IMG/VR virus record: IMGVR_UViG_3300008221_000022
Coordinates: 1 to 29,373 of that record
Direction: 5' to 3' (one strand)
From: a virus
DNA: 29,373 bases
Shown here: positions 1-16,506 of the stretch, piece by piece
Numbering within the stretch: position 1 is the stretch's first letter
How the letters are laid out: each line of letters opens with the position of its first letter
Position numbers and translations under genes: made by a program
The notes under the pieces: generated by a model
Told to the model about the DNA's origin: nothing
Seen by the model: only the letters and a program-made list of their open reading frames with translations
The model's database searches: none

Positions 1-3000
1 CGTATTCACCTAGTAATGCTCTGATTTCAGGTGATATGTCTTTGCGTGGTATTAGTGTAGATAAGTCTTTAGAGCCTAGCTTACTTTCGGCAATAAACGA
101 TCCCAAGCTGTCGTAAGCGGTGCTGGTTTTAACCATTTCGTTCATAGTTACTTGGGCTTTTTGCTGTGCTTCTTTTGCTGTTGCGCCGTCTTTTTCATAT
201 TGCTGCATTAAGTATGCACGTGCATCATCAATTACCTTAGTCGGTATTTTTTCAAACCATTTAGGATCGTCAAATGCTTTATAGCTGCGGTTTAAATATT
301 TGCCCATGTTACCTAGCATTTTTTCAAGGCGAGCCGACTCTTTAGGGTCAATATCGCCATCCTCTGCAACTCGCTGCTGAAGCTTGTTATTGACACTTGC
401 AACGTAATCTTTTGTCAGTCCATCGATATGTTCGCGCATTAGTATCAGCGTGTCTCGCTCACTTTGATTAAGCGCCTTGCCATCATTTTCACCTATTAAA
501 AATTGGTGGTACTTAGTCCATTGATCATCGGCTAATCTGTCAGGATTTATTTTGGCGGCTTTCATTGCTGAATTTAGCTTGCCTACCAGCATAGATACAT
601 CAAACTCATGTACAGCTACATCGCGATCACGGCCTCTCTTAGCTTGCTGGACGGTTTCAGGTAAGTTGCCACCTGGCATAAACCAGCGTGAAAGTTGGCG
701 TTTTATTTTATCGCCTGCGGTTTTGTCGGTTTCGCGTAGTTGTGCGTTTAGCGCCTCCCATTCTGGCACGCTTGATTTTTCAAAGCGGTCGCGGTTAAAC
801 GCCTTTTTTACTGATTCCGCTATTTTGTTTGGTGCTGGGCTAGTGTCGTTATTGGCTGTGCGGCTGAATTTTTTATCTGACTGACTATAAGCTATTTCGG
901 CTTCACTGCCAGCCATTGACTCACGCTGCGCTTTGAATCCTTTAACTATACTCTCAAGCATTTCACGCATTGCTGTTAGCTCGGTATCTTCGCTATAAGC
1001 CAGGCCTACTTTATCAAGCTGTGCACGTATAAAGCGTTTAAGTGCTTGCCACCAATATTTAAGCTCGCCTTTTGTGGGCTCGTTTTCTACAAAGCGTGCA
1101 AATATTTCTTCAGCTTTAACGTCCTCGCTTGCATCCCAATAATCGTTGTTCGCATCTTTCCAGTATTTCTCAAACGCTTTACGGCCCTTGGTCTTTTTAA
1201 TACGATCAATAAATTCTTGCTTAGCTTCTTTACCAATAACAGTATCAAGGCCACCATGAGCAATAGTTTCATGCGCTAAAGTTTGTTTAAGATCCTCTAT
1301 ACTATCCATGTTTTCAGCAATGATATAAACAGTATTGGACATTTCACTATAAGCGCCCTTAACTGTTGCACCTTCTAAACTCATGCGCCATAGTTTTTCT
1401 GCTGTGGCGGTATCTTCAAGTATATTAACAGTGATGCCGTTGGCGCCTTTTAAGTCTTTAACAAACTGATCAGCAATACGCTGCGCTTGCTCAGTGCTGA
1501 TTGATTTGCTGCTAGCTGGCTTTTTAGATTTTGACTTTGAAAACTTAACATCGCTAGCTATTTGTACTTCTGGCGCATCGCTTGGCTTCTCAATAACGAT
1601 TGCTTTAGTATTTACGTTTGTTGGGTTTAGCGAGCTTTTAAATGCGCCTTCTGGTAGCGTTTGCTGCTCTGCGTCTAAAGAATCTAGCCATGTGTTAAAC
1701 TCTTTGTTTGCTTTGTTGCTTCGCTCACCTGCCATGCTAGACGTTATAGCCACAAGCTTGCCGCCTGGGTTAAGCATTTTATATGCGTGTTCAACATGCT
1801 TAATATCTTGGTCATTGCTAAATGGCGGGTTCATTACTATACGGTCGTAGCCATTTTCTGGCGCAAACTCTAAGAAGTCATTACCAACTAGGTTATGCCC
1901 CTTTTCTTGTAGTATTTCTCTAAGCTGCCCGCCCATTTCAACCACGTCTACGGTCGCGCCTTGCTCTCTTGCTGCGTCGGCTAAAAGTCCGTTGCCTGCT
2001 GATGGTTCAAGCACACGCATGCCTGGCTCAATATCTGCCATTTCAGCAATATCGCTAGCAAGACTTTCAGGTGTTGGGAAAAAATCGTTAAATGCGTTTC
2101 TATTTCCTAACATTGTTCGCTGCAAGTCTCTTTCCATTTGACTTAGCTTGCTTGGTGCTTTACCTGTAGAGCTATTTTCGCTTAAATTCATGTACTCAAT
2201 TAATGCAGTTCTAAGTGTCGGCACATTAGTAATACCCATTCTATCTAGGCGCTTATAGTTTGCAGCGGCATCGCGTAGCATGTCGTATTGGCTAAGATTG
2301 TTTTCTATGTAATCAATATATTTAGGGATCAGGGTATCATCAACATCAATATAGTCTTGATCGCTCTTGCCTTTGACTAGCGCGTTCATCTTGCGACCCA
2401 GCAACACAAAGCCTTTAGTATCTTCCATATCGCGAGCAATTTCTTTTAGCCTAAATACCTTTGTGGTTTTTAAAGGCATTCTTGCGTGCTTTGCTCTTTC
2501 GGCCTTTGATACTTCGGCTTTAAATGTTCTTCTGCTGTTGCTGTCCTTATTCACTTGGCTTTCTGGCGCGCTATTAACTAGGCTTCTTGCTAGTGAGTCT
2601 AATAGCTCAACCTGCACTTTTTGAGTCGCATTTTTTAATACTATCGTGTCCGAACCTGGTAGCTCTCGCATGATCTTAGATAGCTCAATTTCCTTTTCAG
2701 CTTTTGCGGTTGCTGATTCTGCCTCACCAAGACGTTTAATAGTGTTTGTTTTTCTATCTGCGTTTAGGGCTTCACTTGCGCGCTGCTCCGCTTTCTCAGC
2801 CATAGCTTGCAGTTTGTCCGCATTTTTCTGACTTCTCGCCTCCTGCCTTTCAGCCTGTTTCTCTGTGGTGTCTACAGTTTCACCGTTAACCCACCCACTA
2901 AATAGCTCGGCATCTTCTACAGATTTAAAGTAAAAATTACTCCGGTAGTAACCGCCACCCATTGAACGCGCAAAGGCTGCTGCTTCTTTAAATGCGTCTT

Positions 3001-6000
3001 TTCCAAGTCGGCTAATTACATTTACATTAAATATCTTTTCGCCTGTTTTGCCATGCACGCCCTCAGTAGGCTCGCCCAACTCAACATCGCCACCTGTTTT
3101 AAGACCTTCTTTTTCGGTTGGCTTTTCATTTTTGCTGGCCATGGTTTCACCTGCAATTAGCTTGTCGTATTCTGCTTGTTGCTCGGTAGTTAGGCTGTCT
3201 TGTCCCTGCGCTTTGATCTTCGCTTTGAAGTCATCTAGTGTTTGAGGGTTTTTAAGTTTATCTAGGTACTGATCAAATCTTTCTTTTTGCGCGTCTATTT
3301 TTGCCTTTTGCTCTTGTGAATATTCCGCGACCTGCTGATCAGTCAAAGAGTCAACATGCTTTTTAGCCTCGCTTATTTTATCCTCTAGCTTGTAAGAGTT
3401 CGTGGTAATAAACTCGCTCTGTTCGCCTATAAATCTAAAGCGCGTGAACATATCGCGGTATGCGCTATCTACCAGCTCGTCTTTTTTGGTGTCACTCCAA
3501 ACATGACCGCTCACCAACCTAGTCAGTTGCTTTTTATTTAGCTTTCTAAGCTCGGCTTTTACAGAGTCTTTATTATCTGCCAGGTAATCAAGTACGCGCT
3601 TAACTTCTTGAACGCTACCAAGCTCGCCCTTACTCATTGCGTCTGTCATGCTGTCGTAAGCGTCCAAACCCGACTCGATAGGCGTTTGCTTGACTGGTGC
3701 TTGACTGGTGCTTGATTGCTCACCTCCCGTCACGGTTTCAATTTCTTTCCATAACTTACTGCGTGATCCAAGCACGCTTTTAAGCGTAGTCCCGCTATTT
3801 TTAAGTGCGCTTTCTATTTTATCTATTGCTTGTGCTGCCTCATCCCCATGAGTGCTTAAAATCCTATCCCATGCTTTTTTAGCTCTTGGCATAAACGCTG
3901 ATTTGTTTAAGCCTGGGGTTTGCATTGCACCTAGCTCGTTAGCAAAATCAATGATCGATTTTTGCTTATCGCTTTCTTTTTTCCTTTGTGTTGCCGCTGC
4001 TCTTTGATCTTCATTCATTACCGCCTCAACTCTAGCGGCTATGTTTTTCCTTTTTGAGTCTAAGCGTTCAAGCTCTTCACTAGACTCTCTTGCTTGGCGC
4101 TCTGCTTTGCTGTTGTACTTATCAAGATCAAGGTTATCTCTACCGGTTATGGCCCATGACGGATTGTTAGCGGCCCGATTAGATTCGCGATAAATGTATG
4201 ACTTACTATCTTCTAAATAACTCTCTATAACCTCTTTGGCTTTGCTCTTTCGCTCTGGCGTATCTAGCAGGCCCTTGTCGTTTAAATGTGTAAGTATAGA
4301 CTCTGCACTAATCCTTAACTCTTCGTTAAAGTCTCGGCCTCTTCCTCTGTGCGTAGCCATGTTGTATTGGCGCTCTGTATCGCTATCAATTGCAGGTACG
4401 CTAACATCAACGCCAAACTTAGATGTATTAGCGTTTTGAGCGGTTGAACTATCTGGAATTTCCGGATTGTTGGATTGAGCTGTAGGCTCTTGGTCAAATA
4501 GAGTCGGCTCGCTATCTCCAAACATATCAGGGCCATTTTCTTGCTCTACGCTTTCTGGCTCTACTGCTGTTTCTTCTACTTGAAACGTATCATCAATGCC
4601 AAATTCTTTACGCAGTTCGCTGTACGCTTGTCGGTTAATACTTTCTGGTGTATCACTATTAAACTCTTGATACGTTTCAAACGATGATTCAGCTAGGGCC
4701 TTATCAATGGCTGGTTCATAACCTTCTTCAATTTTAGCCATGGCAACATCAAAGCCAGGCGAGCCTTTTTTAAGGCCCTGCTCTTTGGCTTGGCTCTGTA
4801 ACCATTTGCGTTTAGTGGTTTTTAGTATTGGTGGTAGCTCGGCTGATTGTTCAGGATTAACAGCGTCTTGTTCACTATTTTCAAGTTTTTGCTCTGGAAT
4901 AACACTGTTTTGTTCATTTTTAACTTCAATTTGTTCATTCGTAACAGTCTGGCTATCCTGCGTTTCAGTGCTGGGCATTTCTTTAGCCAATGGCACTAGT
5001 TGTTCAATAGGCGCATTTAAGCGGATCACTTTTACTGGCTCGCCTTTTTCGCGGGCGGCTAGCCACTGGTGATGACCGTCGAGTACATAGTTATCATTCG
5101 ATACTAATATAGAACGGTTGCCGCCTTCAAACTCCATTGCCTTTTTAACCTTGGCTGGTGAAAACTCTTGCTGCGTTGGCTTTAATGACTGTGCTGGCAC
5201 TTCATCTTTTTCACTGTCGATGTCACGCGCTTTCATAAAATTAACCATAGCGCCACGGCTCTCAGCTTTGACTTGTGGCATTTCTGAACGTGGTATATTT
5301 TTGGTGCCGCTCTCCTTGGTAAAAGATTGCCATTCATCATCAATCATTTCACCTGCGATATTCTTACCTTCTTCGCTACTCACTTGTTCCGCGTCTACGT
5401 TTAACGATAACGCTTCACCTTCTTGTTGGGCTGGTTGCGCTTGATCGCCCTGTTCATTTTGCGCAACCGTATCAGTTTCAGGGCTTTGCTCCGCTGCTGC
5501 CTGTTCTGAATCTTGCTTAGTGCCATCATCGCCTTTAATCGTCCAGCCAAAACCATTATCAAAACTTACTGCTTTTGTTTTGTGGCCGGCTCTGCGTGCT
5601 GCTCGCGCTTCTTTACTTAATAGCGCATCGCGTTTGGTTTTAAATGCTTCACCATTTTTAGCCACGTTAACGCCGCTTTCGTTACCAGCAAAGATAATAT
5701 CTTTTTGTGGTAATAAGTTTTGCGAGTCTTTACCGGCTTGCTTAACCTGCTCTGCTGCGCGCTGCTGTGGTCGGCCATCTTCACCAAAAATAATATCTTT
5801 TTGTGCAATGCCTTTAGGCTGTGACTCAAGATCCGCTTGTGCTTGCTCGCGCATTTCACGGTTTTTAGTTTGCTCTGTTGTTGGCAGCTTGCCTTGCTCT
5901 GGTATTACTTGGCCGTCTATTGGTGCGTTTTCTATGCCTTGTGCGTTTTTAGCGTCTGGACCTAATAGCTCGCCTTCGTGCTGATACTTTATAGGACTAA

Positions 6001-7315
6001 AGCGATCCTCTGGCGTTGGTGACTTGTCAAACGCTGCCGCTTTTACTCGCTCGTCTACAGTAGGTGCGTTGTTGCCTGCTTCTAAGTCTCTTAGCGACTG
6101 TTGCGCTGGGCTTGTAAGCATATCACCATACTGGCCGGCTGCTTTTGCTGTCTGGTCAAAGCCTGCTTGTCTTGCGGCTGTTGGCGCATCGTAATCAATA
6201 TCATCATTTTTAAATACAGGCGTTTCGGTATCTTCTGGTATTGTTTGCGCTTGCTCTGTTTCTTGTGATCCCGGCTGATTTTGTTGGGCTGCGGCTGTAA
6301 ACAAAGGATCATCAATGCCGAATTTTTCTTTCATTGTACGGGCAACAATTGCTGACGCTTCAACCTCTGTAAAACCTTGCTTAATGGCTGAGTCGTATTG
6401 CTGCTTTTTAACTGTTTCAATGGCTTCTTCTGGTGCTGCGCCTGCTTCTACAAGCTGATCAACACCTTCCTTAACGGCTTCTGCTGATTTTTGCTGATAA
6501 CCCATAGCCTTTTGCGCCGTTTCTGAGCCGGTACGCATAACGCCACCAACCAAGAGGCCACCAACAAAGGCTTCGTCTAGCCCTTCAAATTCATCAACGC
6601 TTTTGCCAGCACCCCATTGCGCTAGTGCTTCTTGCCCTGTCTCAGTTAAACCCTCTGCGCCTGCGCCTTTCAGTATGCGCTTAGCAAAGGTTGGATCGCG
6701 TACCGCTTCGACCAGCTCACCACGGCCCATGCGTTTAGCCGTTTCGACTACGCCATCTTTTAAAATGTCTTTACCAAGTTGGCCCATGCTAACTTTGATA
6801 CCTAAACGCTCAAGTAACATTTGCCCGGCACCGGACGCAACCGCTTTAACTTCGTCTTTTTCGCCTTCTGGTTGTTTCTCGTAAGCTTCGTTAGCTAAGC
6901 CGCCCGCCATACCAAACGCACCAACACCGGTAGCCGCACCCGCCATGTAGGGCAGTGAGCCCGCAACTAGTTCGCCTGTGTAGCTACCTAAATCGCTGAG
7001 GCTTTCAATGTCCTTATATGATTTTACTGTCGGCTCGTACTGCTCTTGCTCTTTAACGTTACGATCAATGCCTTCTTGAGCCCACTGCGATAACGCTCCG
7101 CCTTGACCTATTGCACGACCTATAGCACCCGTTTGTTCTTCCTCTGGCACTCCAACGTCAGTAAAGCCCTTAACGGCTCGGTACCCAATCTCTTGTAACT
7201 TATCAACACCTGCCCCTAGTGCTGCAGACATACCTCCTTCAGCTTCTGGCTTTGCAAAGGGATCGATAAATTCAATTTCTTTATTAGTAAATGGGTCTAA
7301 TATTTTATTGGCCAT
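1..7315 (-). CDS. Giant polyvalent protein: ParB-like, adenine methyltransferase and zincin-like domains (3' end outside window)
   Basis: An open frame runs from ATG at 7315 to the left edge without a stop, giving at least 2438 residues. Seen in order: Gly/Ala-rich hydrophobic stretches near residues 108-140 and 250-260; two QKDIIF repeats near 508 and 541; a ParB-like domain near 700-775 with D746-G-H-H; a small element near 1435-1475 (FARSMGGGYYRSNFYF, then SVEDAELF) of a type seen in phage and plasmid polyvalent proteins; a methyltransferase near 1700-1900 with LEPSAGNG (1769-1776) and NPPF (1829-1832), the signature of N6-adenine enzymes; and a zincin-like AHETIAHGG with H2015, E2016 and H2020. 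Charged and coiled linkers separate them. The start overlaps the upstream gene by 11 nt. Family knowledge: such polyvalent proteins are probably packaged and injected, and protect incoming DNA. Delivery and activity here are inferred. Long shadow frames on the other strand are not genes. Confidence 0.9.
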   Translation of the reverse strand, partial: MANKILDPFTNKEIEFIDPFAKPEAEGGMSAALGAGVDKLQEIGYRAVKGFTDVGVPEEEQTGAIGRAIGQGGALSQWAQEGIDRNVKEQEQYEPTVKSYKDIESLSDLGSYTGELVAGSLPYMAGAATGVGAFGMAGGLANEAYEKQPEGEKDEVKAVASGAGQMLLERLGIKVSMGQLGKDILKDGVVETAKRMGRGELVEAVRDPTFAKRILKGAGAEGLTETGQEALAQWGAGKSVDEFEGLDEAFVGGLLVGGVMRTGSETAQKAMGYQQKSAEAVKEGVDQLVEAGAAPEEAIETVKKQQYDSAIKQGFTEVEASAIVARTMKEKFGIDDPLFTAAAQQNQPGSQETEQAQTIPEDTETPVFKNDDIDYDAPTAARQAGFDQTAKAAGQYGDMLTSPAQQSLRDLEAGNNAPTVDERVKAAAFDKSPTPEDRFSPIKYQHEGELLGPDAKNAQGIENAPIDGQVIPEQGKLPTTEQTKNREMREQAQADLESQPKGIAQKDIIFGEDGRPQQRAAEQVKQAGKDSQNLLPQKDIIFAGNESGVNVAKNGEAFKTKRDALLSKEARAARRAGHKTKAVSFDNGFGWTIKGDDGTKQDSEQAAAEQSPETDTVAQNEQGDQAQPAQQEGEALSLNVDAEQVSSEEGKNIAGEMIDDEWQSFTKESGTKNIPRSEMPQVKAESRGAMVNFMKARDIDSEKDEVPAQSLKPTQQEFSPAKVKKAMEFEGGNRSILVSNDNYVLDGHHQWLAAREKGEPVKVIRLNAPIEQLVPLAKEMPSTETQDSQTVTNEQIEVKNEQNSVIPEQKLENSEQDAVNPEQSAELPPILKTTKRKWLQSQAKEQGLKKGSPGFDVAMAKIEEGYEPAIDKALAESSFETYQEFNSDTPESINRQAYSELRKEFGIDDTFQVEETAVEPESVEQENGPDMFGDSEPTLFDQEPTAQSNNPEIPDSSTAQNANTSKFGVDVSVPAIDSDTERQYNMATHRGRGRDFNEELRISAESILTHLNDKGLLDTPERKSKAKEVIESYLEDSKSYIYRESNRAANNPSWAITGRDNLDLDKYNSKAERQARESSEELERLDSKRKNIAARVEAVMNEDQRAAATQRKKESDKQKSIIDFANELGAMQTPGLNKSAFMPRAKKAWDRILSTHGDEAAQAIDKIESALKNSGTTLKSVLGSRSKLWKEIETVTGGEQSSTSQAPVKQTPIESGLDAYDSMTDAMSKGELGSVQEVKRVLDYLADNKDSVKAELRKLNKKQLTRLVSGHVWSDTKKDELVDSAYRDMFTRFRFIGEQSEFITTNSYKLEDKISEAKKHVDSLTDQQVAEYSQEQKAKIDAQKERFDQYLDKLKNPQTLDDFKAKIKAQGQDSLTTEQQAEYDKLIAGETMASKNEKPTEKEGLKTGGDVELGEPTEGVHGKTGEKIFNVNVISRLGKDAFKEAAAFARSMGGGYYRSNFYFKSVEDAELFSGWVNGETVDTTEKQAERQEARSQKNADKLQAMAEKAEQRASEALNADRKTNTIKRLGEAESATAKAEKEIELSKIMRELPGSDTIVLKNATQKVQVELLDSLARSLVNSAPESQVNKDSNSRRTFKAEVSKAERAKHARMPLKTTKVFRLKEIARDMEDTKGFVLLGRKMNALVKGKSDQDYIDVDDTLIPKYIDYIENNLSQYDMLRDAAANYKRLDRMGITNVPTLRTALIEYMNLSENSSTGKAPSKLSQMERDLQRTMLGNRNAFNDFFPTPESLASDIAEMADIEPGMRVLEPSAGNGLLADAAREQGATVDVVEMGGQLREILQEKGHNLVGNDFLEFAPENGYDRIVMNPPFSNDQDIKHVEHAYKMLNPGGKLVAITSSMAGERSNKANKEFNTWLDSLDAEQQTLPEGAFKSSLNPTNVNTKAIVIEKPSDAPEVQIASDVKFSKSKSKKPASSKSISTEQAQRIADQFVKDLKGANGITVNILEDTATAEKLWRMSLEGATVKGAYSEMSNTVYIIAENMDSIEDLKQTLAHETIAHGGLDTVIGKEAKQEFIDRIKKTKGRKAFEKYWKDANNDYWDASEDVKAEEIFARFVENEPTKGELKYWWQALKRFIRAQLDKVGLAYSEDTELTAMREMLESIVKGFKAQRESMAGSEAEIAYSQSDKKFSRTANNDTSPAPNKIAESVKKAFNRDRFEKSSVPEWEALNAQLRETDKTAGDKIKRQLSRWFMPGGNLPETVQQAKRGRDRDVAVHEFDVSMLVGKLNSAMKAAKINPDRLADDQWTKYHQFLIGENDGKALNQSERDTLILMREHIDGLTKDYVASVNNKLQQRVAEDGDIDPKESARLEKMLGNMGKYLNRSYKAFDDPKWFEKIPTKVIDDARAYLMQQYEKDGATAKEAQQKAQVTMNEMVKTSTAYDSLGSFIAESKLGSKDLSTLIPRKDISPEIRALLGEY

Positions 7316-8570
7316 TTGATAAGTACCCTTGTTGGATAGCTATTTGCGTAGCTTGTTGTTCAGTAAGATTTTTGTTGACTTCCATAAATTTATTGATAAC
7401 ACCGCTTGCATCGACACCATCTATCTTGCTTATATATTTAGCTTTATTTTTTCCATTTCCTGCCTCTGGCGGTTCTTCTATGGCTTTTTTGCCATATATC
7501 TCACCTAGCTTATTCTTGCGCTGCTCAAATTGGCTCCTAACTGCCGCTATCGCTTCCTTTTTATCCGCTTCTTCACTTGAGTCTTTTTCAGGTTTTCCAT
7601 AGTTGTATTCTATTTCAGCAAGCGCACTAGATTCGTCCTCGATTATTTTTACCCTTGCCTTTCGGTACTCGGACTCTTGAGGGGCTTCTTTTTGCTGTAC
7701 GCTTCTTCTTCCAAAGTTTGCAGCAACTTCGGTCCCCATTTTGTCCCAATATTCAGGGCGCTCTATCATATCTGCCATCATTGCGCGTGTTTTGATGGTG
7801 CCAACCAACTCTTTAGGCGTGTAAGTCATTACAGGATCGTCGCCCTCAGACGTTCGCCCCTTAGTCATTGGCTTGATTTCTTTTGCGCCATTTTCATAGG
7901 TAACTTGTAACGCCAGGGCTACGCTTCCATCTTCACGTTCAGCCGGCACAAAGCCAGCAAAATCCACGCTCGCAATTTTTGACTTAACGGTTTCGTCATA
8001 CTGCCCAACGGATGAATTTATCTTGTCTTTAAATACACCGTTAAATAATTTAATTGTTTCAGGCGAGTTGGCTTCGGCCATATTTCCGCTTTTGATAACG
8101 GTATCAAGCTTTGTGCTTAATCCTTTTACCGCTTCACGATATTCAGGCTTCATGTAAGTACGCGGGTCCATGCCTTTATTGCGTGAAAGTACATCGTTTA
8201 AATCTTCAGGTATCTGGCCTGTTTCTCTGAATGACTGCCACGCTACAGGTATTGCCTGCTGATCTTTTTGCCACTGCGCCTGTTGTGATTGAAAATTTTG
8301 TTGCCACTGCCTTTGCTGTTTGTTTGCGTCTAGCGTTTCGTTGCGATAATCGTTAGCTGATTGCGCTTGGCTTTCACGCCATTTAACGTCCTGCTCGCGA
8401 TTTTGAACGCGCTCATTATCAAGTTGTGATTGTCTATCTAGTCCATCTTGATAACGCTGATCGTTTCGCTTATCCATATCAGCAAGGCGAGCTTTATTGT
8501 CCTTGCGTGCTTGATGGCGCTCCATCATTTCAAAGCCCTTTAACGCCCCGTCTACAAATGCGCCTGCCAT
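7305..8570 (-). CDS. Gln-rich coiled-coil protein, probable internal virion/ejection protein
   Basis: A 421-aa protein of unrecognised family. Residues 1-20 form a short Ala/Gly segment (AGAFVDGALKGFEMMERH). Residues 20-105 are extremely rich in Gln, Arg, Asp and Asn and should form a long coiled coil. The middle (about 120-270) looks globular, and 285-355 is again charged and helical. The C-terminal 45 residues resemble a small helical docking segment (VINKFMEVNKNLTEQQATQ). The start at 8570 has AGGGG seven bases upstream and follows the stop of the glycine-zipper gene by 10 bases. It overlaps the giant polyvalent gene by 11 nt, so the two are probably translationally coupled. Position and composition resemble the internal or pilot proteins that lie before giant ejected proteins in podoviruses. 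That role is inferred; no enzymatic motif is visible. Confidence 0.85.
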   Translation of the reverse strand: MAGAFVDGALKGFEMMERHQARKDNKARLADMDKRNDQRYQDGLDRQSQLDNERVQNREQDVKWRESQAQSANDYRNETLDANKQQRQWQQNFQSQQAQWQKDQQAIPVAWQSFRETGQIPEDLNDVLSRNKGMDPRTYMKPEYREAVKGLSTKLDTVIKSGNMAEANSPETIKLFNGVFKDKINSSVGQYDETVKSKIASVDFAGFVPAEREDGSVALALQVTYENGAKEIKPMTKGRTSEGDDPVMTYTPKELVGTIKTRAMMADMIERPEYWDKMGTEVAANFGRRSVQQKEAPQESEYRKARVKIIEDESSALAEIEYNYGKPEKDSSEEADKKEAIAAVRSQFEQRKNKLGEIYGKKAIEEPPEAGNGKNKAKYISKIDGVDASGVINKFMEVNKNLTEQQATQIAIQQGYLSNGQ

Positions 8571-8580
8571 ACATTACCCC

Positions 8581-8838
8581 TTAAAGTGAACCAGCAACTA
8601 AACCAATAGCGCCGCCTATAGCTGCACCCCAAGGCCCGCCAACCGAACCAGCTTGCGCACCTGCCATCCAGCCAACCATGGCACCGGTGCCAGCACCGCT
8701 AATTTGTGAGCTTTTTTGCTGCTGCTTTAGGTTTTCGTTAGTCATATCGCGGTTTTGCTCCATATCAGATAGAGATTTAAGCGAGCCTGTGGCCTTGTTT
8801 TTTGTACTTTGACCTGCTTGCAGTATTGAATAAGCCAT
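8581..8838 (-). CDS. Small glycine-zipper protein, probable membrane-active ejection protein
   Basis: An 85-aa protein in two halves. Residues 1-46 are polar and helical (Gln, Asn, Lys, Ser). Residues 47-85 are almost entirely Gly, Ala, Ser and hydrophobic residues in a GxxxG-like pattern (SGAGTGAMVGWMAGAQAGSV, then GGPWGAAIGGAIGLVAGSL). Such glycine-zipper hairpins insert into or oligomerise in membranes and occur in phage pilot and ejection proteins. No signal peptide is visible, so a virion-associated role is more likely than export. The start shares one base with the upstream stop (TAATG), indicating coupling. A holin-like role is an alternative, but the charged N-terminal half and the virion context argue against it. 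Confidence 0.82.
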   Translation of the reverse strand: MAYSILQAGQSTKNKATGSLKSLSDMEQNRDMTNENLKQQQKSSQISGAGTGAMVGWMAGAQAGSVGGPWGAAIGGAIGLVAGSL

Positions 8839-9272
8839 TATTTACCACCTATATCAGCTAGAGACTTAGGCGCGCCGCCTTGCCCCGTTAGAATTGAGTT
8901 TTGCAAATCGTCTACTGACTCGCGTGTTTCGTTGTTTACAGAGGCCGTTGTTAGGCTTTTTAATAAACCTGTATTGGCGCTGCTTTGCTTTGTTTCATCT
9001 GGCGTTAAACCGTATCGCCCCAAGCGTTGCGACTCGGCCACTTTCGATTGATTGAAAGAAGTGCTTATATTTTTTTCATTGCGCGCCATCTGTTCATTTA
9101 GCAACTTGTCGCTTGTCGCTAGGCCAAACAATTCCTCCTGGACCGGTAAGAAGCGCGTTTTATAATCTTCAAATTGCTGGCGAGTTAGATCGGCTAAGGC
9201 GTTTTGATATTTATCGGTTCTAATGCTTGAGCTATCAACACTGTAAATATCGTAATCAAAATCATCTTCCAT
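8838..9272 (-). CDS. Small helical virion protein, related in layout to the gene upstream
   Basis: A 144-aa protein with no recognised enzymatic domain. It begins with an acidic Tyr/Asp-rich tail, followed by a helical core with a FEDYKTRFLPVQEEL segment (about 34-48), then SFNQSKVAESQRLGRYGL (about 72-89) and a Gly-rich end. The order of aromatic-FxPxE helix, polar helix, and a short Gly plus Pro motif (RYGLTPDE) matches the order in the neighbouring 211-aa protein (YYQDSIVPFE ... EANGINPNSG). Such pairs occur in podovirus ejection modules. The start at 9272 is well supported by AGGAG seven bases upstream. It is followed directly by the glycine-zipper gene with a 1-nt overlap. An internal virion or ejection role is inferred from the neighbourhood. 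Confidence 0.83.
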   Translation of the reverse strand: MEDDFDYDIYSVDSSSIRTDKYQNALADLTRQQFEDYKTRFLPVQEELFGLATSDKLLNEQMARNEKNISTSFNQSKVAESQRLGRYGLTPDETKQSSANTGLLKSLTTASVNNETRESVDDLQNSILTGQGGAPKSLADIGGK

Positions 9273-9333: not shown

Positions 9334-9969
9334 TTAACCGCCTCCCATTAGTGATTTATTTACATCGCTTGGCGTTGCTGCGTTAGCATTGATCACTGGG
9401 TCTGGCTTTGGAGGTGGTAAGTTTTTATAATAACTACCTGCGGCACCAGCCAGCGCACCCGCAGCGCCAATTATTGAGTCACTTTGGGCTCTGCTGTTTG
9501 CTGCATCATTAAACGCTTTTCGTTGTGAGCTGCCGGCAATATCGCTTAGCGTTGCTGTCGCTTCCTGTGACTGCCCTTGCCCCATAGCCATTACATTTGC
9601 CATCTTGCCTGTGTAGCGCTCCTGCCCCGCAACTTGTGAACTTGATTTTGCATCGCTTGTTACTGACGCTTCGTTGTCGGCCATATCACTAACAACGTTT
9701 TTGAACTTGCCGCTATTTGGGTTTATGCCGTTCGCTTCCATACTTGAAAGTGCGTTATTACTGGCATCTGAAAAGGATTTTTTATAACCAAGATTTGTAT
9801 TCTCGGCTATGTCATCGTAAACGCTTGCGTCATTGGCTTGCTTTGCTTCGTCAATAACTTGGTTTTCAAACGGTACAATGCTGTCTTGGTAGTAAGCCCA
9901 TTCTTCGCCGTATACTTTGGCAAGCTCTTTTTCGTACTCTGTTTCTTTGACTTTGTTGGACTTACCCAT
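9334..9969 (-). CDS. Helical virion protein with Gly/Ala C-terminal segment, probable ejection protein
   Basis: A 211-aa protein. A GTG at 9999 would add ten residues, but ATG at 9969 is preferred because it follows the upstream stop by five bases and has AGGGG ten bases upstream. Residues 1-65 are charged and helical and include WAYYQDSIVPFENQV. A KSFSDA segment and an NGINPNSGKF turn follow (about 80-105). The centre is Ala/Ser/Gln-rich. Near residue 170 a Gly/Ala hydrophobic stretch (IGAAGALAGAAGSYY) resembles the glycine zipper of the protein two genes downstream. A short Pro-rich region and a GGG end close the protein. The motif order is shared with the 144-aa neighbour. An internal or ejected virion role is inferred; the family is not recognised with certainty. 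Confidence 0.83.
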   Translation of the reverse strand: MGKSNKVKETEYEKELAKVYGEEWAYYQDSIVPFENQVIDEAKQANDASVYDDIAENTNLGYKKSFSDASNNALSSMEANGINPNSGKFKNVVSDMADNEASVTSDAKSSSQVAGQERYTGKMANVMAMGQGQSQEATATLSDIAGSSQRKAFNDAANSRAQSDSIIGAAGALAGAAGSYYKNLPPPKPDPVINANAATPSDVNKSLMGGG

Positions 9970-9974
9970 GAATG

Positions 9975-10391
9975 TTATTCCCCTAAAAAGTGTCGCCACA
10001 CGGTTAAACCATCACGCACGCCAGCGTGAGCCCAGCCATGTGAGGGAGCTACTTTGTTAAACCCGCGTCTAGCGGTTGCAAATTCGATAAATTGAGCCTT
10101 GCCGCACTTAGCAAGCCTAATGATGTGATGTAGGTAACGCTGCGTAGCATTTCCGCCGTGGCAAGACGCTACGGTTATTTCGATAAAGGTTTGGTTTTCA
10201 ATGTGACGAGGCCACAAAATAAAAAAACCATCTGGCACCAAAAACAAAAAAGCCCACTCGTTTGAGCAGGCTTTATTGATTTCTTGGTATAGGTGCGGGT
10301 CGTTTGCAATGTTGCCTATTCGAGTTATTGGCTCTTTAAGCCGATCACGGTGTTTATCCCATGATACGCATTGCAGATAAGACTTTTCCAT
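9975..10391 (-). CDS. GNAT-like small protein between tail and ejection genes
   Basis: A 138-aa protein. Its C-terminal half (about 70-136) reads like the late part of a GNAT acetyltransferase fold: a strand with FIEITVASC, a helix with RYLHHIIRLA, a strand with AQFIEFATARRGF, and a final GWAHAGVRDGLTVWRHFL segment. Small acetyltransferase-like proteins often sit between tail-fibre and internal-protein genes in short-tailed phages. A canonical acetyl-CoA loop (Q/RxxGxG/A) is not obvious, so activity is uncertain and a structural role is possible. Upstream lies a weak ribosome site and a 38-base gap with no clear signal. Oddly, codons 40-51 or so form a terminator-like hairpin with a T tract (10241-10272). 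Confidence 0.7.
   Translation of the reverse strand: MEKSYLQCVSWDKHRDRLKEPITRIGNIANDPHLYQEINKACSNEWAFLFLVPDGFFILWPRHIENQTFIEITVASCHGGNATQRYLHHIIRLAKCGKAQFIEFATARRGFNKVAPSHGWAHAGVRDGLTVWRHFLGE
10241..10272 (-). terminator. Terminator-like hairpin inside the GNAT-like coding sequence
   Basis: On the minus strand AGCCTGCTC pairs with GAGTGGGCT (nine pairs, two of them G-T wobbles) around a 4-base AAAC loop, and TTTTTTGTTTTT follows immediately. This is the layout of an intrinsic terminator, but it lies within an open frame, where it encodes KACSNEWAFLFL. Ribosomes translating the gene would be expected to mask it, so it could act only when translation is poor. Function is inferred from structure alone. 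Confidence 0.5.
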
Positions 10392-10429: not shown

Positions 10430-13400
10430 TTATGAAATTGAGCTCGCCTTTTTAAACACAGAGCATCGTATATCTCCACCCACAGTAGGGAACCCATCCC
10501 TATAAGATGTAGACTGATTTAATTTTGCTGTATATGTTCTTGATGTATTTGCTGGTATGTCGTGGATAAAGTTACTAAATTCCTCACCCGCTGATGCCTT
10601 TTTTCTTGATACTATCGAGCTTGACCCGCTTCGATAAAAGTCAACGGTTCCGTATATGGGGCCGCCTTCATAAGCCGCGTAACCACTGCATTTTATGCCG
10701 GTTATCTCTACCTTTCTTGCAAATGGTTCAGGTGAAATGCTAAATGAAACAATAGTGTCTCCGCTGCTATTTATCGAAAGAGAAATACCCTCTTTTATAA
10801 GCACATCATATACATCACCTTCAAGATTTTGAGCATATACGGTGCCGTAAAAGCTCGCATTCTGCCCAAACAGCGAGTTGATATACGCCGTATCTATTTG
10901 CGCGCTACCAATAGCGCCATTGGCAATGTAGGTAGTTACATTTGAGCTCAATATTTTACTAAGTCCTGCGAATGGCCCAAGTGAAGGCTTGCCAGTTATG
11001 CTGTTGTAAGCGAGCGAGTTTAAGTAAGCTAGTGAGCCCAAGCTCGGCTTTCCTGTCACTTCGTTGTAAGACAATGAATTTTTAGAGGCTAGACTTCCAA
11101 GTGTGGGTCTGCCGCTCAAGTCTGAATAACCTAAACTACTTAAAAACGCGAAAGTTCCCAGGTTTGGCCTACCGCTAAGCTCGTTGTAGCCAAGCGAGTC
11201 TTTAGAGGCTAAGTTACCTAGCCCTGTCACTTTGGATGAAGGTATTGCGCCGGTGGATGACATTACAACGTTGCCGTTATTATCCTTAATCGTAACTGAT
11301 TCAAGTGTCGCGCTCTTTGCAAGCATGTTGCCGCCAGGATCAATTGAAAAGTTACTGCTTCGCGCCCCGCTAACTGGATTGTAATTAATAGACGGTGTTG
11401 TTAGTGTTGAACCAACAAGCAAGCGATTTGCAAGCAGATCATCAGTAACAAGGCTTTTTATAAATGCCTCGTCAATAATTGCAGTATTAATAACTGTCTT
11501 ACCATCTGACACCGCAAACACAGGTGTTAAGTTAGTAGGATCTTGATCTGTTATAACAGCAAGCTTAGCGCCTTTAACTGCGAATATAGGTTCAACACCA
11601 TCATTCACAAGACCAAGACTTGTTGTGAGTCCATTAACAGTAGACTTGACACCCCATAATGCGCTGTACTCACCTTGGTTTGTTGCTACAGTTTCGCTTA
11701 CTATTTGTAGTGAAGATCTTACGTTGTTTACTTCGGATAATAGCGTTTCAGACGCGGTTGCTATCGCCTGGTCTGCTTCCGTTTTTGTTGTGTAGTTACT
11801 AATAATAAGCGCGCCAATACTATCACCTTCGGGATCTTCGATAAGTGACCTAAGTACGTTAGTTGCCGAGCTTATTGCGCTATTTGTATCAGACTTTGTG
11901 TAATAATTTAATTGTAAATTCGCGCCTATGCTGTTGCCTTCGGGATCTTCAATAGTTGCACGTAGCGCAGTATCCGCACTGGCTATTGCTTCGCCTACTT
12001 TTGCGCTAGTTAAGTAGTTGTTTAATAGGTCAGCTGAAACATTATCAATATCACTATCTAGCTTTTCTATTATTTCTGCGGTTGCCTCTGTGCTACTTGC
12101 AAACGTTGATTGGAGTTCATACAGGGTTGCTCGGTTTTCACCCATTGCAGCATTTAAAACCGTTAGAGACTCAGCAAAAGCGCTTTGTTCATTAGCAAAA
12201 ACATTTTGCCTTTGTATTATATCCGCCTCGGCTATCGTCCTTCGCTCTTGCTCCAAGTCATTAGCTAAAGCGTTTTCAATTGCGGCTATAGCGCTTGTTT
12301 CATACTCCGCTCTTAATTGCTGATTTGTTGAAGCGCTTGATTGCTCCGCATCTGCTTTGGTTTCATACTCATTAAATAGCGTAGCGCCAAGGCTGTTGCC
12401 CTGCGGATCTTCAATTTCGCTTTTTAGTATTGTTGTGGCTTGGCTTATCGCTTGCTCTGTCTCTACAGAGGTTAAAAAGTTTTCGTAAATATCAGAGGTA
12501 GCCCCTTCTATTGCGCTTTGCATTGCGTTTGTTGCTTGGCTTATAGCGCTTTCTGTATCGACTTTTGTTAAATAATTAACTTCAAGGAATGCCTTGTTTT
12601 CATCTACCTTTGTATTTAGCTGTAGAATGTCACTTGCTGTTGAGCTGGTCGCGTCAGAGAATGCCGCGCTTAACTGCGTTAATTTTGATTCGCTTTCGAG
12701 AAAGTTTGTTTCAATAACCGTGATTGATTGCGCTAGCGCCTCTGTTTGGCTGGTTGTAGCCTCTTGGGTCCTTAGTATGCTGGCGGTAACAATTCTTTGT
12801 TGGTCTGCCTGCTGATCATTAGCTAGCGCGTTTTCAATAACAGCTTGTGCTAACGGCTCGTTTGCAAGCTCAACTTCACTGCTTAGCTGAAATATAGCTC
12901 TTGATACTGCTTCTTCTACGCTGGCCTTTGTGCTGTATTCGTGAAATAGCGTAGCGCCTATGCTGTTACCCATAGGATCTTCAATTTCAGCTTTAAGCAA
13001 TTGAGCCGATGATGTTATTGCTTCGTTGGTTTCTGTTTTGGTGTAGTAATCTTGCGTGAGTGTCGCGCTTACTTCTTCGTCTATCGTAGATTTAAGCTGC
13101 GTTGTTGCCTGGCTAATAGCTGAATTAGTTTCTACCGTAGTGCTGTAATCTTGTTTTATTAGCGAGCCTAGACTTTCACCGTCCGGATCTTCTATCTCAC
13201 TTTTTAACTGTAGGCCATAAGCTGCTATTGCATTGTCTGTCGCAGTTGATGTGTAGTAATCGTTAAATAGCGTAGCACCTACGCTGTCGCCTTCGGGGTT
13301 TTCAATTAATGATCTAAGCGTTTGCGTTGCAGCGGCTATCGCTTCGTCTGTAGTCGCTTTGGTGTAGTAGGTATTTGCAATGTCGCCACTTAACGCGGTT

Positions 13401-14443
13401 CCATTTTCCTCTATCATTACCTGTATGGTTTCTGCTGCAGCTGCTATGGCTTCATTTGCTTCTGTCTTTGTTAAAAACTCGGCTTCTATGCGAGCATTAA
13501 CATTACCAAGCTTAGATTCAAACTCGTACAGCTTAACCGCATTCGCCTCCCAATTTAGATCGCCAACAAGCGCGCTTTCAATTAACTGTCTAGCTAATGA
13601 GTCCGTATCAAAGTCGAGTGCTTCAACTCTGTCTATCGCGTCCTCGGCATCTTGTTTTGCCTGCTCCGTAATAGTATCTAGGCTTTCTATGCGCTCTTGT
13701 ATGCTGGGAATATCAATTAAATGCTGGTCAACATCGGCGCGTAACTCGTCTATATCTAAATCAAAGTTATCTATTTCGACTTTTAATGCTGGTATTTCAT
13801 TAAAAGCAACATCTTCAATTAAGTATTCCAGCCCCGGTATTTTATCGACTGCCGTTGATAGAAAATCACTCAAATGCGATTTCTCTATAAGCCCGCCAAT
13901 TTCACCAAGTATAAGTTCAGCTGACTTTTGCGTCTTTGCAAAAACACCGGCTGCGCCCTGAGTTGGTCCTTTTACATCGGCAATATTTACAAAGCGAACC
14001 CAATAGTAATATTCAGCTCCCATATTTACAGTATCGCTAAATACGTCCGCAACTTCTGTCGCTATTAGCGTGGCACTGTTAAATGAGTCTGTTTCGCTGC
14101 GCCATATTTCAGCGTAAGCATGGCCTCTATAGGTGGGGTGATCCCAGCTAACGGCTATAAATGTAAAGCCACCTGTGGCCGATAGGTTGACAGGCGCGTG
14201 CGGTCTTTCCACGCCACCTGTTGTAATTGGCAGTCCGCCATCATTGGTGCCGCCACTCGCATTATTAATAAGTGCCTGGCGCTTCATATCATCAAGATCA
14301 ACAAGGTCGCTCATTAATAAAGCTCTGTTATTACCTCGCTGGCCTGTTAGCAGCTCTATATTTTCAGTAATAGCGCTACTAGTGGGATCTTGCCGGCCTT
14401 TTCTTACTATGCCAGGGAATGTGCCTTTTTTTAATTTTGCCAT
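10430..14443 (-). CDS. Large repeat-rich tail protein with N-terminal FN3 domain (fibre or host-recognition protein)
   Basis: A 1337-aa protein. Residues 1-80 are a basic, polar N-terminus. Residues 82-170 form an FN3-like domain (VSWDHPTY, YYYWVRFVN). From about 320 to 890 the protein is helical with repeats: twelve units of the YYTKTETNEAI type and six of the IEDPEGNSIGATL type, plus a larger duplicated module starting IENALAND. Near 1067-1156 there are four full and one partial roughly 20-residue repeats of the form LGSLASKNSLSYNEVTGKPS. The last 150 residues are beta-rich and probably form the receptor-facing or trimerising tip. FN3 plus long helical repeats recall tail-tip proteins with a gpJ-like C-terminal half. 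The gene starts one base into the upstream stop (TAATG). Host recognition is inferred. Confidence 0.85.
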   Translation of the reverse strand: MAKLKKGTFPGIVRKGRQDPTSSAITENIELLTGQRGNNRALLMSDLVDLDDMKRQALINNASGGTNDGGLPITTGGVERPHAPVNLSATGGFTFIAVSWDHPTYRGHAYAEIWRSETDSFNSATLIATEVADVFSDTVNMGAEYYYWVRFVNIADVKGPTQGAAGVFAKTQKSAELILGEIGGLIEKSHLSDFLSTAVDKIPGLEYLIEDVAFNEIPALKVEIDNFDLDIDELRADVDQHLIDIPSIQERIESLDTITEQAKQDAEDAIDRVEALDFDTDSLARQLIESALVGDLNWEANAVKLYEFESKLGNVNARIEAEFLTKTEANEAIAAAAETIQVMIEENGTALSGDIANTYYTKATTDEAIAAATQTLRSLIENPEGDSVGATLFNDYYTSTATDNAIAAYGLQLKSEIEDPDGESLGSLIKQDYSTTVETNSAISQATTQLKSTIDEEVSATLTQDYYTKTETNEAITSSAQLLKAEIEDPMGNSIGATLFHEYSTKASVEEAVSRAIFQLSSEVELANEPLAQAVIENALANDQQADQQRIVTASILRTQEATTSQTEALAQSITVIETNFLESESKLTQLSAAFSDATSSTASDILQLNTKVDENKAFLEVNYLTKVDTESAISQATNAMQSAIEGATSDIYENFLTSVETEQAISQATTILKSEIEDPQGNSLGATLFNEYETKADAEQSSASTNQQLRAEYETSAIAAIENALANDLEQERRTIAEADIIQRQNVFANEQSAFAESLTVLNAAMGENRATLYELQSTFASSTEATAEIIEKLDSDIDNVSADLLNNYLTSAKVGEAIASADTALRATIEDPEGNSIGANLQLNYYTKSDTNSAISSATNVLRSLIEDPEGDSIGALIISNYTTKTEADQAIATASETLLSEVNNVRSSLQIVSETVATNQGEYSALWGVKSTVNGLTTSLGLVNDGVEPIFAVKGAKLAVITDQDPTNLTPVFAVSDGKTVINTAIIDEAFIKSLVTDDLLANRLLVGSTLTTPSINYNPVSGARSSNFSIDPGGNMLAKSATLESVTIKDNNGNVVMSSTGAIPSSKVTGLGNLASKDSLGYNELSGRPNLGTFAFLSSLGYSDLSGRPTLGSLASKNSLSYNEVTGKPSLGSLAYLNSLAYNSITGKPSLGPFAGLSKILSSNVTTYIANGAIGSAQIDTAYINSLFGQNASFYGTVYAQNLEGDVYDVLIKEGISLSINSSGDTIVSFSISPEPFARKVEITGIKCSGYAAYEGGPIYGTVDFYRSGSSSIVSRKKASAGEEFSNFIHDIPANTSRTYTAKLNQSTSYRDGFPTVGGDIRCSVFKKASSIS

Positions 14444-16095: not shown

Positions 16096-16506
16096 CTATT
16101 CAATCGGTAGGCTCATAGCGTAGCATCGCTGCGGGGTGAAGCGTCCTACAAAATCTAGGTTTACATAGTCTAGGCAGTAAGCAACAAGCTCAGAGCAAAA
16201 CCACTTGTGCGGATCATTCCAAGCACTAAAGTAATGACCAATAGCACCGCCAAAATCATATTTTTGACCTAAAAGCGCATTAGCATCTGTAGAGTTTCCA
16301 TTCATCACGCGTATTTCGTGATCAGGGTAGTCGAGCTTGAATTTTTTAAGCGGCTCCTTAATAACGCCCTTAAATGCTTTTGCATGTATAACGTAGTCAA
16401 TGCCCTGCTCTTTCACAATGACACCGCAATGATGCCACTGTGACCATGTAACTAACTTAATCAACAGGCTAAACGGCATGTTGTTAGTGCAAAAAATCAC
16501 TCGCAT
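16096..16506 (-). CDS. YiiX / NlpC-P60-like permuted papain-fold enzyme
   Basis: A 136-aa protein matching the permuted papain-like (YiiX, LRAT-like NlpC/P60) fold. An N-terminal catalytic His lies in WHHCGVIV (H26 likely). A VIHAKAFKGVIKEPL strand pair follows. Near the C-terminus LLGQKYDFGG precedes the nucleophile segment KWFCSELVAYC with C104. The final RFTPQRCYAM fits the family's closing strand. Known members hydrolyse or transfer amide or ester bonds, often in peptidoglycan or lipids. In phages such genes sit among tail genes, where they could help penetrate the envelope or process virion proteins. No signal peptide or transmembrane helix is seen. The substrate is unknown. A 42-base gap to the next gene holds no evident signal. 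Confidence 0.78.
   Translation of the reverse strand: MRVIFCTNNMPFSLLIKLVTWSQWHHCGVIVKEQGIDYVIHAKAFKGVIKEPLKKFKLDYPDHEIRVMNGNSTDANALLGQKYDFGGAIGHYFSAWNDPHKWFCSELVAYCLDYVNLDFVGRFTPQRCYAMSLPIE

Follow-up and report, generated by a model that had tools for sequence, protein, structure and literature searches.

On balance, we favor the reading that the giant gene in the window (the whole stretch of DNA analyzed here, a complete virus record of 29,373 bp classed as linear/fragment) encodes a packaged and ejected multi-tool anti-restriction protein of a Pseudoalteromonas podovirus-type phage, which would cut itself at joints carrying the tripeptide F-S-[RK]. The gene, its domains, the slots in which relatives exchange modules and the concentration of the motif beside the peptidase domain are established. 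Early protection of the infecting DNA can reasonably be expected by analogy with DarB of phage P1 and from the presence of an adenine methyltransferase.

The giant frame spans positions 2..7315 on the minus strand (as do all window features below), starts with ATG and continues for 2438 codons without a stop, being open at the window edge. Because the window is a whole linear record, this truncation reflects the end of the contig rather than biology. A longer record, IMGVR_UViG_3300009428_000011 (L007; 53,852 bases), is identical to the window over a 17,315-base overlap and extends the frame to its stop (remainder at L007:17315-19204), giving a complete gene of 3067 codons, of which the window holds codons 1-2438; L007 may come from the same sample or assembly source, so that its identity does not amount to independent sequencing. 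Relatives along the length of the protein are encoded by 19 viral contigs, and in the C-terminal part the comparison with one of these records, L009, gives 98% identity at the protein level versus about 91.5% at the DNA level, as expected under purifying selection. The open frame is real and not due to chance, and the initial annotation, which described one uninterrupted frame running off the window edge, is confirmed by the continuation in L007. In the late block, terminase-like, portal-like, coat-like, tail-fibre and small virion-type genes precede the giant gene, and since the genes that follow it in L007 sit on the opposite strand, it is the last of the block, which upholds its initial placement at the end of a virion operon. 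The gene thus stands beside late/virion genes, as described for the phage type of polyvalent proteins by Iyer et al. 2017. Its relatives point to the marine bacterium Pseudoalteromonas as the host, namely, phage vB_Pun_Y3 and a single prophage, detected in Pseudoalteromonas shioyasakiensis (strain JCM 18891 carries a relative) in one scan of genome contigs.

The protein opens with a module containing Gly/Ala-rich stretches (residues 1-360; 6236..7315), which shows 73-95% identity in close relatives and is replaced by alternative forms in others. Farther along, alignment, AlphaFold2 (AF2) modeling and Foldseek searches converge on a ParB/Srx-like domain (residues 660-800; 4916..5338) with the signature RSILVS..VLDGHHQW, in which DGHHQW is invariant. 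The AF2 model is confident over this domain, and each of its top 11 Foldseek matches is a ParB, Noc or sulfiredoxin structure, with probabilities of 0.60-1.00 and E-values of only 0.007-0.09; membership in the ParB/Srx superfamily is thereby supported at the level of the predicted fold. Assignment to the DdrB-like ParB family (PF18763) was rejected because the Pfam model has no match in the window protein at E<=1, unlike in the counterpart from phage Y3, which it matches at 2e-29; a profile of the domain retrieved nothing useful among PDB sequences. The ParB-like domain is followed by a conserved block (residues 845-960; 4436..4783; SSFETYQEFNSDTPESINRQ..) and a region of unknown function (residues 961-1215; 3671..4435) present in 14 sampled open reading frames (ORFs).

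The central enzymatic domain is an N6-adenine methyltransferase of the gamma, HsdM-TaqI type (residues 1641-1915; 1571..2395; placed by Pfam at residues 1750-1878) with the motifs FFPTP, EPSAGNG and NPPF, the first and last of which fit the TP and NPP[FY] motifs of the gamma class. Its profile matches the HsdM, TaqI and EcoKI M chains in the PDB, and the catalytic motifs are kept across phages from different hosts. A pre-methyltransferase module that frequently accompanies this methyltransferase class (residues 1217-1640; 2396..3667) precedes it; this module of about 430 aa is a possible target-recognition region. Pfam identified no helicase in the window protein, or in the 700 residues behind the methyltransferase in the 45 class members compared (0/45), in contrast to the methylase-helicase dyad that Iyer et al. 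2017 described as nearly always fused. Membership in the DarB-type dyad was rejected accordingly, the SF2/SNF2 helicase being missing behind the methyltransferase.

The methyltransferase is followed by a zincin-like metallopeptidase domain (residues 1936-2140; 896..1510) with the active-site motif HETIAH (residues 2015-2020; 1256..1273) and, in our alignment (A1), an invariant distal glutamate, the combination characteristic of polyvalent-protein zincins. The spacing corresponds to HEXXXH, a zincin variant noted by Iyer et al. 2017, and a reading as HEXXH was rejected; the zincin profile yielded no match among PDB sequences. The remainder of the protein is a domain of about 880 aa (residues 2190-3067; its start at 2..748, the rest in L007), which is predicted to be almost entirely helical and matches the virion structural PHROG family 22602. 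Its AF2 model is of moderate quality (mean pLDDT 67), and the fold resembles only the tails of many viral polyvalent proteins; the model has no fold match in the PDB, and the profile of the domain recovered nothing useful from PDB sequences. The profile and structure searches, which also covered the C-terminus missing from the window, support the ParB-like, adenine methyltransferase and zincin-like domains named in the initial annotation (by profiles and motifs and, for ParB, by AF2 and Foldseek) and add the helical C-terminus. With ParB/Srx, methyltransferase and zincin domains in one frame, the protein combines at least two disparate activities in a single polypeptide of a mobile element, which is the definition of a polyvalent protein given by Iyer et al. 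2017, and its initial designation as such holds.

Beyond the initial annotation, comparison of close relatives reveals a modular architecture in which both ends are kept and the middles are unrelated. At the DNA level, the sequences are about 68-91% similar as far as residue ~910 (or 958); similarity then disappears and returns, at 68-92%, from ~1928-1969 onward, which delimits an exchange slot (slot 1) with the conserved block of residues 845-960 at its left edge. Slot 1 holds the methyltransferase in the window protein and in Y3; LPD5 and LPD1/CLCA_X with a second, HEWWH zincin in eleven other relatives; and a methyltransferase with a helicase in contigs L012, L014 and L016. A second slot (slot 2) lies behind the zincin and ahead of the C-terminal domain; nothing occupies it in the window protein, and it contains MuF_C in L013 and L020 and ART-PolyVal in L014. 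The modules of 131 sampled giant proteins form nearly fifty combinations, in a largely consistent order. The ParB-pre-methyltransferase-methyltransferase-zincin set recurs among them, and the trio of ParB, methyltransferase and zincin, found in many contigs, is not unique; the initial suggestion of a possibly undescribed domain set therefore holds only in part, for the full eight-module set, seen once among the 131 sampled, but not for the trio. The slots offer a naturally occurring collection of exchangeable anti-defence enzymes, probably delivered in the virion, the borders of which are readable from sequence.

Known proteins provide a framework for the likely deployment of this architecture. 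Among the closest is WPJ21802 of Pseudoalteromonas phage vB_Pun_Y3 together with its downstream ORF, from the same phage type and the same gene position, which is 79% identical over the pre-methyltransferase and methyltransferase modules, 61% over the zincin and 84% over the start of the C-terminal domain, but differs in having the Pfam ddrB-ParB domain in the ParB slot and additional ART, LPD5/LPD1 and second zincin domains. In the Y3 genome (L002; OR779980.1), an exact 1,000-bp tandem repeat at 33394-35394, which may be an assembly artefact, splits the giant gene into two annotated ORFs; the ORF named ADP-ribosyltransferase consists mostly of the shared C-terminal domain. Gp60 of Pseudomonas phage H66 (F116 group), annotated as verified in the virion by mass spectrometry, shares the ParB (46% identity), pre-methyltransferase (29%) and methyltransferase (49%) modules in the same order, whereas the zincin and C-terminus of the giant protein are unmatched in it by BLAST. 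The 'DarB-like' gp69 of Burkholderia phage JC1, identified by 51 unique peptides in CsCl-purified virions (PMC9144972), is also colinear (ParB, 48%; methyltransferase, 30%; a weak C-terminal match) but has a divergent zincin (HEAFH) and, at 4515 aa, is much longer. Because these two colinear homologs were detected in virions, packaging of the giant protein is likely, and the initial proposal that it is packaged and injected draws its support from this homology. P1 DarB, a virion-borne protein with an adenine methyltransferase that protects incoming DNA in cis (PMC5512222; PMC9024508), also shares the methyltransferase, with only 22% identity over ~200 aa, but includes a helicase module and lacks the zincin motif, the opposite of the giant protein on both counts.

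Also beyond the initial annotation, the zincin is bracketed by two copies of a short motif, FSK at residues 1925-1927 (1535..1543), 90 residues before HETIAH and at the right edge of slot 1, and FSR at residues 2150-2152 (860..868), at the edge of slot 2. The proteins of close relatives contain one to three copies of F-S-[RK] per 2,500-4,200 residues, mostly at these bracketing joints, and where slot 2 is filled, by MuF_C or ART, FSR is found behind the cassette. Across 54 non-redundant proteins, 36 of the 105 occurrences fell into the two windows immediately flanking the zincin, compared with 6 of 42 for the scrambled control SF[RK] and 4 of 72 for [RK]SF. Since these flank windows had been chosen on the same set, they were tested on a new independent scan: of the 43 occurrences in 18 new proteins, 17 lay in windows covering 4.9% of the residues, against 2.1 expected (p 6e-12, on the assumption of independent occurrences, to which related linkers do not fully conform), with none for SF[RK], [RK]SF and FT[RK] and a mild excess for VS[RK] (5/18). 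Overall, the immediate flanks carry the motif in 43 of 81 zincin proteins and lack it in about half; among the degenerate zincins, only three in number, one retains it. The residues around the motif vary while the motif itself stays, and because its codons vary as well, what is kept is the protein motif. A single DNA-level recombination site at F-S-[RK] was considered unlikely for the same reason, codon variation, though the Ser codons are biased: the motif Ser is AGC or AGT at 23 of 28 flank sites in GC-rich relatives versus 44% of all Ser codons in these genes, so that a cause at the DNA level retains some plausibility. Literature searches returned nothing on the motif, and Iyer et al. 2017, who proposed that the zincin cuts its own polyvalent protein, name neither a cleavage site nor a linker motif in their text.

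These observations suggest the following course of events. The giant protein would be expressed late, as the product of the last virion gene, enter the particle and presumably leave it with the DNA, whereupon the helicase-free methyltransferase, perhaps with the ParB-like domain as an NTP-binding partner, could guard the newly delivered genome against restriction. The HEXXXH zincin may cut the chain at the flanking F-S-[RK] joints, at residues ~1925 and ~2150, which would release an N-terminal ParB-methyltransferase part of ~210 kDa, a peptidase of ~25 kDa and a helical C-terminal virion part of ~100 kDa; the same joints would bound the slots where relatives swap whole enzymatic cassettes. Cleavage at the motif is the most tentative element, in our estimate less likely than not, and F-S-[RK] is accordingly designated here a putative processing site from its distribution in sequences. 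The broader generalization, that it is a common zincin processing site of phage polyvalent proteins and a preferred cassette-exchange joint, is equally tentative. If true, these proteins would be cargo carriers that cleave themselves and take up anti-defence modules in plug-in slots, the phage equivalent of a polyprotein. A motif that marks the joints opens self-cleavage to a simple bench test.

The strongest competitor, to which we assign slightly less than even chances, is that the packaged polyvalent protein stays uncut, F-S-[RK] being an inherited linker with a structural or docking role, and that cassettes are exchanged by ordinary homologous recombination in the conserved flanks. Descent alone could conserve linkers beside a shared domain, and neither the many zincin proteins without the flank motif nor P1 DdrB, which is reported to be processed and, like P1 DarB, lacks F-S-[RK], fits cleavage at this site. 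The virion RNA polymerase (vRNAP) of phage N4, with a zincin and a helical C-terminal domain, is reported to be packaged unprocessed (PMC5512222), a precedent for an uncut chain; its zincin-flank windows are devoid of F-S-[RK], however, so that it also counts in favor of cleavage at the motif. An inherited linker is harder to reconcile with a tripeptide that persists while its neighbors vary, is found on either side of the zincin as well as behind inserted MuF_C and ART cassettes, and whose scrambled forms are absent from the flanks in the independent set.

N4 is also the basis of an alternative that we regard as unlikely, namely, that the giant protein serves chiefly in ejection or as part of a pore, on an N4-vRNAP-like chassis, with the methyltransferase and ParB domains as passengers of little use. 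N4 gp50 has the same order of an N-terminal part, an enzyme (an RNA polymerase as the payload instead), an HExxH zincin-like C1 and a ~110-kDa helical C2 subdomain (PMC12633501), and the helical C-terminal domain is common to virion PHROG 22602 and many polyvalent proteins. Passenger status agrees poorly with the conservation of the catalytic methyltransferase motifs across phages of different hosts, and the C-terminal domain shows no detectable homology to gp50 (hhalign probability 0.3%; hmmsearch about 1 bit), for which reason membership in the N4 vRNAP family was rejected. Least probable is a late intracellular enzyme that is never packaged and methylates progeny DNA in advance or targets superinfecting DNA; late expression by itself would permit this, but the virion-borne homologs, the virion PHROG match and the position in the virion block speak against it.

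Next to the giant gene in the late block, toward higher coordinates, lie a 421-aa protein (phrog_601; 7305..8570), an 85-aa glycine-zipper protein (8581..8838) with sub-threshold similarity to the C-terminus of the P22 ejection protein gp7, and proteins of 144 aa (phrog_596; 8838..9272) and 221 aa (phrog_611; 9334..9999), each with a weak virion structural PHROG match. Searches of the window for Rfam RNAs and tRNAs found none. The 138-aa phrog_610 protein adjoining the ejection-like genes (9975-10391) may be a modifying enzyme, an acetyltransferase being annotated at a similar place in Y3 and JC1. Farther along lie a 1337-aa tail fibre (10430-14443) with many YYTKTETNEAI-type repeats and a Phage_Tail_Tip domain and, between tail-type genes, a 136-aa permuted papain-like amidase (Peptidase_C92, E 8e-9; 16096-16506).
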